Assembly: GCA_902596045.1 (NCBI GenBank) | Contig: CACJSJ010000001.1 | Span: 62,001-126,000 of the forward strand | Origin: an uncultured Pelagibacteraceae bacterium | GTDB taxonomy: Bacteria; Pseudomonadota; Alphaproteobacteria; Pelagibacterales; Pelagibacteraceae | Length of the DNA: 64,000 bases | Reading direction: 5' to 3' | Shown: in pieces, positions 4,487 through 38,377 of the stretch | Position numbering within the stretch: the stretch's first letter is position 1 | How the letters are laid out: each line of letters opens with the position of its first letter | Program-made: the position numbers and the translations under genes | Notes under the pieces: generated by a model | The model's input: only the letters and a program-made list of their open reading frames with translations | Told to the model about the DNA's origin: nothing | Database searches by the model: none

Positions 4487-5265
4487 TGGTTCAAATTAAT
4501 TTACCTGAAAACTCAAAAGTAAAAAAAGGTAAATATTTTAAAGATAAAACAGGCTCAAAAAATTTAAGAAAAGTAAACATATATAGGTGGGATCCTACTT
4601 CTGGAGAAAATCCTAGAATAGATACATATGAGGTGGACATGGATAACTGTCCCTCAAAAGTTTTAGATATTTTAAACAAAATTAAAAATGAAATTGACCC
4701 AACAATTGCATATAGAAGATCTTGTGCTCATGGTGTTTGTGGTTCTTGTGCTATGAATATGGGTGGGAAAAATGGTTTAGCTTGTACAAAACCTCATTCT
4801 GAAATTGATGGAGATATAGATATTTATCCTTTACCTCATTTAAAAGTTAAAAAAGATCTAATAGGTGATTTAGATGGATTATATAAACAATATCAATCTA
4901 TAGAACCATGGTTAAAATCTAATTCAAAATCTAAGACGACTGAAATTATTCAATCAAAAGAAGATAGAAAAAAATTAGATGGAGCATACGAATGTATAAT
5001 GTGTGCTTGCTGTTCAACTTCTTGCCCAAGTTATTGGTGGAATGGTGATAAATATTTAGGTCCTGCTGTTCTTTTACAAGCATACAGATGGATTGTGGAT
5101 AGTAGAGATGAAGAGAGAGAAGCGAGATTAAAAAAAGTAGCAGACGAATTAAAACTTTATAGATGCCACACAATATTAAATTGTACAAGCGCATGTCCTA
5201 AAGGATTGAATCCTGCAAAAGCAATTGCTGAAATAAAGAAAATGTTGGCTACAACTAGTCTTTAA
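4486..5265 (+). CDS. sdhB: succinate dehydrogenase iron-sulfur subunit SdhB
   Basis: SdhB carries electrons from SdhA to the quinone site through three iron-sulfur clusters. The 2Fe-2S cysteines are in [13 protein letters not shown] plus a downstream ACTK (about bases 4720-4790). The 4Fe-4S and 3Fe-4S cysteines are in [16 protein letters not shown] (about 4993-5040) and in CHTILNC with ACPKGLNP (about 5164-5214). The 259-residue length is normal. The ATG shares one base with the sdhA stop. The tail overlaps the oppositely oriented iclR-type gene by 11 bases, and I see no clear hairpin terminator there. Confidence 0.97.
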
Positions 5266-35387: not shown

Positions 35388-35984
35388 TTATTTTTCTATT
35401 AAGAATATACCTAAATCAGAAAACAAATTTTTAATTCCTAAATTATTTTCATTTATTAATGAAGAATTTAAATTATTTAACGCTAATGATTTAAAAATTT
35501 TGATATCTCTAGATTTAACAAAATAAACAAAATCCTTAATAGTGCACATATGTAAATTAGGTGTGCTGTACCATTCATCTGGTAACGCTTTGGTAATTGG
35601 CATTGTTCCTTTAAATAACAAGTGAAATCTTACTTTCCAGAAACCAAAATTGGGGATGGTAACAATTGCTTTTTTTCCAACTCTTAAAAGTTCGTTCAAG
35701 ACTAATTCGGGATTTAAAAAAGCTTGTAGAGTTTGACTTAAAACAACATAATCAAATGATTTATCAGGAAATTGTTTTAGGTCTTTTTCAGCATTTCCTT
35801 CAATCACAGTTAAACCTTTAGCAATACATTCTTGAACTTTATTTTTTGAAATTTCTAATCCTCTAATGTTAATATTTTTATTATCTTTTAAATATTTCAT
35901 TAAAGTTCCATCTGCACAACCTACATCTAAAACTTTTTTATCTTTTTCAATTAAATCTGCTATTATTTTAAATTCATTTTTCAT
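35388..35984 (-). CDS. metW: methionine biosynthesis protein MetW
   Basis: MetW is a SAM-dependent methyltransferase-fold protein that works with MetX in homoserine acetylation or succinylation. The glycine-rich SAM motif is VLDVGCADGTLMKYL (about residues 18-32), and SFDYVVLSQTLQAFLNPE and TIPNFGFWKVRFHLLFKGTM are family hallmarks. The 198-residue length is normal. It follows metX by one base. Confidence 0.94.
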   Translation of the reverse strand: MKNEFKIIADLIEKDKKVLDVGCADGTLMKYLKDNKNINIRGLEISKNKVQECIAKGLTVIEGNAEKDLKQFPDKSFDYVVLSQTLQAFLNPELVLNELLRVGKKAIVTIPNFGFWKVRFHLLFKGTMPITKALPDEWYSTPNLHMCTIKDFVYFVKSRDIKIFKSLALNNLNSSLINENNLGIKNLFSDLGIFLIEK

Positions 35985-35985
35985 A

Positions 35986-37104
35986 CTAATTTTCTATATA
36001 AGATTTATCTAAAAAGTTTTTAAGAGCATTTAAAAAGTCAGGGACATCCAATAAGAAAGAATCATGACCTTTATCTGATTTAATTTCAACAAACCCTACA
36101 TCTGCTCCAATTGAATTTAATGCTATAACGATATCTTTATTTTCTTGAGTTGGATAAAGCCAATCTGAAGTAAAAGAAATTATGAAAAATTTAGCTTTTG
36201 TATTTTTAAATGCATCTGACAAATTACCTTTGAATTGTTTAGTTAAATCAAAATAATCCATAGCTCTTGTGATATAAAGATAACTATTAGCATCAAATCT
36301 ATCTACAAAAACTGAACCTTGATATCTTAAGTAGCTTTCAATTTGGAAATCTGCATCAAAACCAAATTTAAGATCTTCTCTTTCTTGTAATTTTCTTCCA
36401 AATTTTTCCTGTAAACCTTTTTTTGACAAATAGGTTATATGAGCAGCCATTCTAGCTACCGCTAATCCTTTCCCTGGACTCGTATTGCTTAAACTATAAT
36501 TTCCATCTTTCCAGTTACTATCGGCTGTAATTGCTTGTCTTCCTAATTCATTCAAAGCAATGTTTTGCGCTGAATGATTTGAGGTTGTAGCAATTGGTAT
36601 CACCGTTTTAGATTTTTCAGGAAAGTTGCTTATAAATTGAAGAACTTGCATTCCACCCATAGACCCACCTGCTATAGAAAAAAGTTTATCAATACCAAAA
36701 TATTCTAGTAGATTATATTGTGCATTAACTATGTCATTAATAGTAATAACAGGAAAATTTATTCCGAACACTTTGTTATTGTCAGGATCTTTATGGCTTG
36801 GTCCGTAAGAACCCATACATCCTCCGATTACATTAGAACAAATAACAAAATACTTATTTGTATCTATAGCTTTGCCTGGGCCTACAGCATAGCTCCACCA
36901 ACCATCTTTCTTAGTTATAGGATTTAATCCAGTTACAAACTGATCGCCTGTTAGTGCATGAAAAACTAATATTGCGTTATCTTTTTTTGAATTAAGTGAA
37001 CCATAAGTTTCATAAGCGATAGGAAAATCTTTGATAGTTTTACCACAGTCTAGCTTAAGTGGTTTTTTTACAATTAATGTTTTTATATTTTTATCAATAT
37101 TCAT
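35986..37104 (-). CDS. metX: homoserine O-acetyltransferase
   Basis: MetX acylates homoserine to start methionine synthesis. This alpha/beta-hydrolase has the nucleophile serine in IAGGSMGGMQVLQF, the aspartate in ISFTSDWLYPT and the histidine in SDKGHDSFLLD. The 372 residues are typical. A SAM-II riboswitch and its promoter lie directly upstream, so high S-adenosylmethionine should lower expression of metX, metW and gloB. Whether it uses acetyl- or succinyl-CoA cannot be decided by eye. Confidence 0.95.
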   Translation of the reverse strand: MNIDKNIKTLIVKKPLKLDCGKTIKDFPIAYETYGSLNSKKDNAILVFHALTGDQFVTGLNPITKKDGWWSYAVGPGKAIDTNKYFVICSNVIGGCMGSYGPSHKDPDNNKVFGINFPVITINDIVNAQYNLLEYFGIDKLFSIAGGSMGGMQVLQFISNFPEKSKTVIPIATTSNHSAQNIALNELGRQAITADSNWKDGNYSLSNTSPGKGLAVARMAAHITYLSKKGLQEKFGRKLQEREDLKFGFDADFQIESYLRYQGSVFVDRFDANSYLYITRAMDYFDLTKQFKGNLSDAFKNTKAKFFIISFTSDWLYPTQENKDIVIALNSIGADVGFVEIKSDKGHDSFLLDVPDFLNALKNFLDKSYIEN

Positions 37105-37136
37105 AATAAGCTCTATTTGAATTGTGAGAAAAAAAA

Positions 37137-37187
37137 CTATTTTAGCGGTTTTTTTTAAGCGCTCGCAATTCAGTTAAATCAGCGCAT
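37137..37187 (-). ncRNA. SAM-II riboswitch
   Basis: On the minus strand the core runs GCGCTGATTTAACTGAATTG (37185-37166), then CGAGCGC, a run of eight A, and CCGCTAAAATAG ending at 37137. The five-base P1 stem pairs GCGCT (37185-37181) with AGCGC (37163-37159). The conserved GCTGATTTAAC loop and 3' GCTAAAA element match the metX SAM-II class as I remember it from the Sargasso Sea crystal structure. There a CC-GG pair of the pseudoknot corresponds to CT-AG here, which looks like a compensatory change. Binding of SAM should stabilise the pseudoknot and lower metX translation. Confidence 0.93.
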
Positions 37188-37191
37188 ATTT

Positions 37192-37220
37192 TTTTTACTA
37201 GAACTTATTTATTATGTCAA
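37192..37220 (-). promoter_or_regulatory. promoter of the metX riboswitch transcript
   Basis: On the minus strand a perfect TTGACA (37220-37215) is followed by 17 bases and TAAAAA (37197-37192). The start of transcription would fall near 37185, at the first base of the riboswitch P1 stem, so the aptamer would be at the very 5' end of the mRNA. Confidence 0.6.
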
Positions 37221-37294
37221 TTTTTTAAAATTCTACCTTATTCTCTATAAAAAATTGTAATTTTATCTATAAAGAGCTCATAAATTTAAAAAAA

Positions 37295-38377
37295 ATGATT
37301 ACTCTAAAATTCAAAAAATTCAATATCGAGGCCTATAAACCCGGTAAATCTAAAATAAAAAAATTCAGAAAAGTTATAAAATTATCAGCAAATGAATCTG
37401 CTTTGGGTATGAGTCCAAAAGCTAAAAAAGTGATTTTAAAAAAAAATTTAATTTTAGATAAATATCCTGATGGAAAGTCTAAAAATTTAAGAAAATCAAT
37501 ATCCAAAATATATAATTGCAATTCAGAAAAAATTATTTGTGGAGCAGGTTCTGATGAAATTATTCAGATGATTTGTCAATTATTTCTACACCCAGGAGAT
37601 GAAGTAGTTTTACCAGAATATAGTTTTTTAATGTATAGAATTTATTCAAAAATTGTTGGAGCCAGAGTAATATTTTCAAAAGAAATAAATTTTAAAATTT
37701 CAATTAATGAGATTCTAAAAAAAGTTTCGAAAAAGACAAAAATTGTTTTTATAGCAAATCCAAATAATCCAACAGGAACTTATTTGACAAAAAAAGAAGT
37801 ATTAGAGCTTAGAAAAAAATTAAATAAAAAAATTTTATTAGTAATTGATGATGCATATGCAGAATATATGCAAAATCCAGACTATACCCCAGGTTTAGAT
37901 CTTTTTAAAAATAAGGAGAATGTTTTTATTCTTCGAACATTTTCAAAAATTTTTGGTTTAGCATCTTTAAGAGTGGGATGGGGATATGGAGCAAAAAAAA
38001 TAATTGATGCACTGAATGTAATTAAGCCACCTTTTAATGTAAATGGTATAGCTCAATTAGCTGCAGTTGAGTCCCTCAAAGATAAAAAATTTATTAAGAA
38101 ATCAATTAAACATAATTTGTTTTATGCAAAAAAACTAAAAAATTTTCTTGAAAATTATAGAATTTTTTCAAATGTCATAACTGCAAATTTTTTGTTACTT
38201 GATTTTGAAAAAAGTAAATATTCAGCAAATTTTTTTTATCAAAGGTTAAAAAGTAAAGGAATAATTTTGCGATCAACTAAAGATGGTTATCATATTAAAA
38301 ATAAATTAAGATTAACTATTGGATCTTCTAAAGAAAATTTAAAATTTATGAGTATAGTAAAGGGAATATTAAATTAA
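37295..38377 (+). CDS. hisC: histidinol-phosphate aminotransferase family enzyme
   Basis: This PLP-dependent class I/II aminotransferase has 360 residues. The PLP lysine is in RTFSKIFGLASLRVGWG. KLSANESALGMSPKA, CGAGSDEIIQMICQ and FIANPNNPTGTYL are typical of HisC. The family makes histidinol phosphate and often also aminates prephenate or phenylpyruvate. Lying immediately before tyrA, with no gap, it may serve aromatic amino acid synthesis as well, but that is inference from position. Confidence 0.92.
   Translation: MITLKFKKFNIEAYKPGKSKIKKFRKVIKLSANESALGMSPKAKKVILKKNLILDKYPDGKSKNLRKSISKIYNCNSEKIICGAGSDEIIQMICQLFLHPGDEVVLPEYSFLMYRIYSKIVGARVIFSKEINFKISINEILKKVSKKTKIVFIANPNNPTGTYLTKKEVLELRKKLNKKILLVIDDAYAEYMQNPDYTPGLDLFKNKENVFILRTFSKIFGLASLRVGWGYGAKKIIDALNVIKPPFNVNGIAQLAAVESLKDKKFIKKSIKHNLFYAKKLKNFLENYRIFSNVITANFLLLDFEKSKYSANFFYQRLKSKGIILRSTKDGYHIKNKLRLTIGSSKENLKFMSIVKGILN

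Follow-up and report, generated by a model that had tools for sequence, protein, structure and literature searches.

The window analysed here (64,000 nucleotides from an uncultured Pelagibacteraceae bacterium) carries on its minus strand metX, encoding homoserine O-acetyltransferase (35986-37104, start codon ATG at 37104), followed by metW (35388-35984). Both were identified as open reading frames with profile matches (MetX, NF001209, 506 bits against a cut-off of 331; MetW, TIGR02081, 234.7 bits against 189.5), and hisC, divergent to metX, starts at 37295. The nearest named metX is 94% identical and lies in an uncultured Pelagibacteraceae genome (among the best 80 of 585 loci). Upstream of metX, on the same strand, a promoter -35 element TTGACA is read directly (37215-37220) and is accompanied at 17-nt spacing by a candidate -10 element TAAAAA (37192-37197). 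From the spacing of these elements transcription is predicted to start near 37186-37184; a consensus promoter scan of the window did not report the metX promoter. The distance from TTGACA to the GCGC of aptamer stem P1 is 29 nt in 93 of the 95 distinct leaders compared below (28 and 30 nt in the remaining two), which with a -10 element at 17-nt spacing leaves 6 nt after the -10. This constancy backs the suggestion, made in a preliminary description of the locus, that the promoter places the aptamer at the first transcribed bases.

The leader contains the parts of a SAM-II aptamer, all on the minus strand. The P1 5′ strand GCGCU (37181-37185) pairs with the 3′ strand AGCGC (37159-37163); both strands are invariant and all P1 pairs standard in 95/95 leaders, and P1 encloses a GAUUU..AUUGC loop. 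The core UGAAUUGCGAG (37162-37172), which combines the P2 5′ strand with the first two bases of the P1 3′ strand, is present in 94 of the 95 leaders (L209 has CGAATTGCGAG). It is followed by an A8 tract (37156-37149), the A-rich loop before GCTAAA, then by CCGCTAAAATAG (37148-37137) and a T8 tract (37136-37129), three stretches that lie exactly where they had been placed before. The conserved GCUAAA (37141-37146), aligned to the GCUAAA of RF01726, is the P2 3′ strand. A candidate P2 can be drawn with GCG (37166-37164) facing CGC (37147-37145) and AACUG (37175-37171) facing UAGUU (37135-37139), the latter being the P2b 3′ strand, placed by hand by analogy with RF01726, which runs into the U8 tract (37129-37136) directly 3′ of P2b. 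The second P2b pair is lost in leaders with ACC or ATC cores (35/113 loci). Across the 113 loci described below the A-run is always 5-8 and the T-run always 5-9 bases long (8 in 69 of them).

Searched at gathering thresholds, Rfam returned no SAM-II match in the window. In E-value mode over 36900-37400, RF01726 (SAM-II long loop) matched end to end (37132-37191, minus strand; all 60 model positions aligned, with 33.7 bits against a gathering score of 44 and E 1.1e-4), and RF00521 (SAM_alpha), which was run on the window and the window's own genome, scored 24.9 bits (gathering 36, E 0.0015). The covariance-model check that had been proposed for this element yields a match to each model, both of them below gathering. 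The RF01726 gathering cut-off, passed in 0/61 genomes (the window's own and 60 relatives), misses the metX riboswitch here; the low score is therefore not peculiar to the window copy, and a calibration limit of the model for this clade is the likely reason. At E<=0.5 some RF01726 match was found in 55 of the 61 genomes and in 6 of 14 control genomes, where one lay over the cut-off, so many of the weak matches are due to chance; 14 regions of weak matches in genomes of the window's genus (g1) resembled coding sequence. Since the formal cut-off test fails, filing the element as SAM-II rests on the aptamer features, the target gene and the published call for SAR11_0217. The assignment to SAM-II before metX, as previously suggested, agrees with the end-to-end match, P1, GCUAAA and the MetX-MetW genes downstream, and by homology the metX leader would be expected to bind SAM. 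Class and place were already known, as PMC2704228 listed a SAM-II element before metX SAR11_0217 of Ca. P. ubique in 2009.

Leaders of relatives were collected in three sets. The 113 loci consist of the window, 32 g1 metX leaders and 80 named Pelagibacteraceae loci; the window's own genome is counted twice, and duplicates between public records and the genome set are possible. A metX gene was found at E<=1e-40 in 54 of the 61 genomes, including 32 of the 37 in g1. The named loci are the best 80 of 585 and so favour close relatives; they carry no genus labels and were grouped with g1 by metX identity (77-94%). With duplicates of the same leader taken out and further g1 leaders found by pattern search put in, the second set came to 95 distinct leaders, all from g1 or from the named loci closest to it. 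The pattern searches, from which 20 of the 32 hits listed were used and then 60 from among the matches listed, assume a 7- or 8-base spacer, which places leaders of other geometry outside the sample. The third set holds 64 other entries (one locus, L165, was entered twice), namely metX leaders of other genera together with SAM-II leaders that precede genes other than metX, in some cases in g1 (e.g. L204, L206, L207 and L208; metY leaders L256, L257, L260 and L274). Coding-like candidates (L246, L253, L254, L261-L263, L266 and L270-L272) were dropped by a GCTAAA filter.

Directly 3′ of the T8 tract lies CTCACAATTCA, the reverse complement of the core TGAATTGCGAG with 10 of 11 Watson-Crick pairs; in the transcript this anti-strand, CUCACAAUUCA (37118-37128, minus strand), complements the core with one C.A mismatch. 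A T5-9 run followed by a CTC.CAATTC-like strand was found in 113/113 loci, and every one of the 95 distinct leaders can be parsed as aptamer, T5-9 directly after P2b, 0-3 bases and anti-strand. The base after the anti-strand, which faces U, is A in 87 leaders and G in 8, both able to pair with U; at the mismatch the base is A, T or C, seldom G, or is missing, and each column beyond the A/G position holds three or four different bases. This column conservation is the main evidence for the anti-strand. By Watson-Crick count, the complementarity of the window leader to its core was reached by 2 of 50000 shuffles, a value to be weighed in the knowledge that this was the third statistic tried, and such complementarity was significant (p<=0.01) in 89/95 clade leaders versus 3/64 other SAM-II entries. 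Complementarity to NNGCUAAA showed the opposite trend (0/95 versus 7/64). With G.U pairs allowed the observed complementarity was reached by 1343 of 20000 shuffles, and a duplex-energy shuffle test gave p<=0.01 in only 12/92 leaders; both tests are too permissive because the sequence is A+T-rich. RNAalifold on the 95-leader alignment returned the P1 hairpin and not the anti-hairpin; true covariation is absent from these leaders because the core hardly varies. The aptamer does not by itself bring the anti-strand along, since one g12 leader (L218) shares the g1 core, has a terminator and lacks the anti-strand.

The main result is that a known riboswitch here carries a conserved anti-aptamer platform, which the preliminary description had missed. 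The metX leader of another genome, G090, has the same platform (L275; T7GTCTCACAATTCA). The position of its metY leader matches that tabulated for strain HTCC1062 in PMC2704228; if the identification holds, the published metX riboswitch of that strain would also be of the anti-strand kind. No description of the platform was found in the literature searched, which covered few subscription journals and does not establish absence from print. Poiata et al. 2009 is the primary paper on SAR11 SAM-II and SAM-V.

In leader-only folds the anti-helix had a probability above 0.5 in 95/95 leaders (minimum 0.81), and with 40 nt of coding sequence added it remained above 0.5 in 65/95. Folding of the leader in alternative states put the forced anti-state below the forced P1-state in 95/95 leaders (median -5.9 kcal/mol, pseudoknot and SAM terms being left out of both), and in a growing chain the minimum free energy fold switches to the anti-fold once 37119 is transcribed. 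The anti-hairpin energies are closely grouped (median -11.2 kcal/mol, sd 1.2, range -16.1 to -9.7, n=94). Against shuffles the whole leader was not unusually stable (z -1.21, 19 of 200 as good), nor did it become so when the coding part was lengthened (z -0.74, 47 of 200 as good). Changing the mismatch to G altered the predicted hairpin energy by a median of -5.4 kcal/mol (87 leaders). Rare anti-strands of the form CTCGCA(TA/AA)ATTC, with a natural G at the mismatch, occur in L047, L112, L264 and L107; these four leaders have a 2-nt insertion and T5-6, and their stability (-10.0 kcal/mol as the mean of three, and -10.7) is near that of the remaining leaders. The mismatch may therefore be a form of tuning that lets SAM still compete. 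Pairing between the anti-strand and codons around +36, noticed by eye in the window, was set aside because the coding sequence varies in relatives.

The preliminary description had envisaged that A8 and U8 pair around the 12-base stretch, compete with the pseudoknot and leave a U tract at the end. A competing fold does exist, but it is a longer hairpin that includes the pairing between CTCACAATTCA and the core; A8 and U8 can pair, but at -2.5 kcal/mol on their own they form only the tip of it. The third element of the proposal fails, as U8 is itself a paired strand, and for want of a U tail the anti-hairpin as drawn is not a terminator. The linker strand and the aptamer are mutually exclusive, as strand exchange demands, on sequence and thermodynamic evidence, and the predicted two-state switch is well supported by sequence.

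Terminators distinguish the window clade from its relatives. A scripted search found terminator-like hairpins in 51/64 other entries versus 0/95 clade metX leaders, and a terminator scan of the window found 0 between the aptamer and the metX start. By eye, a G-C hairpin followed by T7-9 is present in all metX leaders inspected from genera g8 (6/6), g9 (12/12, one with a mismatch in the terminator stem), g11 (5/5) and g12 (4/4) and from the sister family f2 (18/18, the sample covering 18 of 22 metX-bearing genomes). The sister terminators carry, again by eye, a near-complement of the GCUAAA strand in or beside the loop, which is the usual antiterminator logic; this near-complementarity was significant by shuffle in only 7/64 of the other entries. 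The 13 other entries without a terminator are eight g7/g13 leaders, four metY tandem leaders and L233. Within g1, other SAM-II leaders retain a terminator by eye (L204, L206, L207 and L208), indicating that the metX leader is what changed. In g11 and g12, T runs stand on both sides of the terminator, and our guess would be that loss of a hairpin between such runs put P2b beside a T run, as in g1.

The account that we favour, and regard as probable, is that the metX-metW leader unites a SAM-II aptamer with a clade-specific strand-exchange platform through which SAM turns expression OFF. Without SAM, the 19-nt U8-CUCACAAUUCA would pair with the core and the A8 loop, giving the fold UGAAUUGCGAG-[CGCUU]-A8-loop-U8-CUCACAAUUCA; P1 and P2 would be dismantled and the message read (ON). 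If SAM binds early enough, the pseudoknot would persist, the P2b 3′ strand would abut a free U tract and the message would be shortened (OFF). The direction SAM = OFF follows from the feedback expected on methionine synthesis and from the terminator-type sisters. SAM would presumably have to bind before the anti-strand emerges. In the bhmT full-length RNA, as described in PMC11508383, the linker blocks the response of SAM-II to SAM, a precedent for kinetic control in which the decision is made before the linker exists.

Which step gives the output (termination, Rho or RNase E, or translation) we can only infer. An RNA-level output is favoured, with termination first and Rho or RNase E second, because translational masking is unsupported, and a transcriptional output is plausible because the sister genera have terminators. 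Tentatively, and with rather less confidence than in the switch as a whole, we propose that transcription ends prematurely at the U tract or immediately behind it, the SAM-stabilised pseudoknot replacing a lost terminator hairpin. The earlier suggestion of a transcriptional component beyond the usual translational control is to that extent plausible, but its premise is the wrong way round: according to PMC2258182 and PMC6061858, most SAM-II elements act on transcription and a minor subset on translation. The introduction of PMC5069961 likewise calls SAM-II transcriptional, and for S. meliloti PMC9373788 reports one SAM-II element predicted to terminate and another that controls translation. 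Table 1 of PMC5069961, which gives 23 genes changed at least sixfold in sulfur-limited or stationary HTCC1062 cultures, does not include metX (SAR11_0217), which counts against the proposed output; the paper also has a 134-gene figure.

A stricter form of this proposal, which we hold to be doubtful, is that the SAM-bound pseudoknot is itself the terminator, with P2b abutting U5-9 and no separate hairpin, that the anti-strand then locks read-through transcripts away from SAM, and that the arrangement arose by hairpin loss between T runs. A terminator stem would be expected to be longer and less rich in A-U pairs than P2b, which counts against termination. The review PMC10907184 considers a ligand-stabilised intrinsic terminator unlikely, the time window being short, and allows that guanidine-IV may act directly. 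If the pseudoknot does terminate, the ligand itself would create the terminator, and such a mechanism is held to be improbable; if it does not, another hairpin-free output is indicated.

One such output, which we think unlikely, keeps the same two-state switch and has SAM expose the G-free U8-CUCACAAUUCA as a Rho loading or RNase E site, which the anti-hairpin hides without SAM. The hidden stretch consists of precisely the U tract and the anti-strand and, in the window, is rich in pyrimidines and free of G; the polarity is that of an OFF switch, and the lack of a terminator-like hairpin in all 95 leaders fits as well. Set against this, Rho loading on a single-stranded stretch of some 30 nt would be tight, and the mRNAs of S. 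meliloti SAM-II leaders were reported to be stabilised at high SAM (PMC9373788).

Translational control, in which the exchange between anti-hairpin and pseudoknot would alter how easily ribosomes reach the metX start, for instance by way of a near-constant spacing between hairpin and AUG, is in our estimation improbable. That spacing is indeed narrow, the anti-strand ending 13-17 nt before the ATG in 72/95 leaders and 15-16 nt in 54, a minor translational SAM-II subset is known (PMC6061858), and eight g7/g13 metX leaders have a Shine-Dalgarno-like P2b. In the window clade, however, the P2b 3′ strand is UAGUU or AAGUU-like and holds no Shine-Dalgarno sequence, and anti-Shine-Dalgarno pairing at -3 kcal/mol or better was found in 4/95 leaders versus 13/56 open reading frames of the window. 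Mean openness from -15 to +12 was 0.530 with the aptamer and 0.549 without it, and was lower without it in 48/95 leaders, showing no direction. Moreover, of the two folds it is the SAM-free one whose hairpin comes closest to the AUG, which is the wrong polarity for feedback repression. The aptamer end, formerly put at about 32 bases before the ATG, lies 27 to 32 bases from it, depending on which end is chosen, and the earlier impression that this is far for direct masking of a ribosome site agrees with a P2b without Shine-Dalgarno sequence and with the nearly unchanged openness.

Two further explanations differ from the strand-exchange switch in what they make of the tracts and the linker. It is very unlikely that CTCACAATTCA serves as an operator in the DNA, or as some other site, and complements the aptamer by chance. 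It is similar to a LacI-type half site, AATTGTGAG, but CTCACAATTC occurs in a single copy in the 1.07-Mb assembly (87% complete), in the metX leader, for which reason a LacI-like operator was rejected; the variable bases are mainly the mismatch and the A/G opposite U, as RNA pairing predicts, and CTCACAATTCA is missing from the SAM-II leaders of other genera, among them L218, whose core is the same. The version of the preliminary description, in which the A8/U8 hairpin alone is a transcription terminator, is the least credible: the tracts are complementary, both are conserved, and A-run and T-run lengths correlate (rho 0.40, uncorrected for relatedness), but the hairpin is weak, has neither G-C pairs nor a U tail and was not picked up by the terminator scan.

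Several other SAM-II arrangements were observed in the wider set. In the eight g7/g13 metX leaders (L235, L236, L237, L239, L240, L241, L242 and L244; 8/8) the Shine-Dalgarno-like P2b (AAGGA or GAGGA) is followed by a hairpin-like stretch and then the ATG, as if the hairpin brought a distant Shine-Dalgarno sequence to the start codon. A second SAM-II/V-like pseudoknot, GCCGATTTG..CCTATTGCGGGC..CTGCTAAAAAGGA, lies upstream of the metY SAM-V in L179 (window genome G000:C12, ~5083-5214), L256, L257, L260, L274 and L276, and between the two aptamers stands AATCGGTAGGC, complementary to the GCCGATT of the pseudoknot; the table of PMC2704228 gives only SAM-V before metY. In L196, L204, L206, L207, L238 and L252, from several genera of the family, SAM-II plus terminator is followed by a SAM-V-like stretch (by eye), which is the known bhmT-type tandem arrangement. 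SAM-II plus terminator also precedes a metF-looking open reading frame, its start placed by eye, in L198, L199, L200, L201 and L243.

Compared with the SAM-II elements of RF00521 and RF01726, SAR11_0217 included, the window leader is alike in P1, the GAUUU loop, the AUUGC core, the A-rich loop, GCUAAA and the gene; it differs in scoring below both gathering thresholds, in having neither a terminator hairpin nor a Shine-Dalgarno sequence in P2b, and in what comes after the aptamer, namely U8 and then a complement of the P2 5′ strand. The terminator-type sisters (g8, g9, g11, g12 and f2; e.g. L215-L234, L247-L251, L151-L168) share the aptamer type, the gene and a linker able to pair with the aptamer, whereas the window clade lacks the hairpin and its anti-strand targets the other P2 strand. 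The translational metX SAM-II from a Sargasso Sea metagenome (PDB 2QWY) is likewise a SAM-II aptamer before a marine metX, but its Shine-Dalgarno sequence is described as lying within P2 (PMC10907184, PMC9373788), whereas the window P2b has none. The SAM-II/SAM-V tandem of bhmT, also from SAR11, has a downstream linker reported to hinder SAM-II folding (PMC11508383, PMC9481103); that linker is described as a hairpin before a poly(U), and a second aptamer, SAM-V, accompanies it; neither is present in the window leader. The HMP-PP (thiS) riboswitch (PMC6478431) is comparable solely in how it works, with aptamer and terminator fused and the decision made at a U tract; its ligand and fold are different, and there the ligand is described as causing read-through, whereas here SAM is proposed to stop transcription. 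Of the two types described, that with a terminator hairpin and that with a masked Shine-Dalgarno sequence, the platform of this SAR11 clade fits neither, and related organisms appear to hold three answers to one control problem: a terminator, a Shine-Dalgarno type and an anti-strand.
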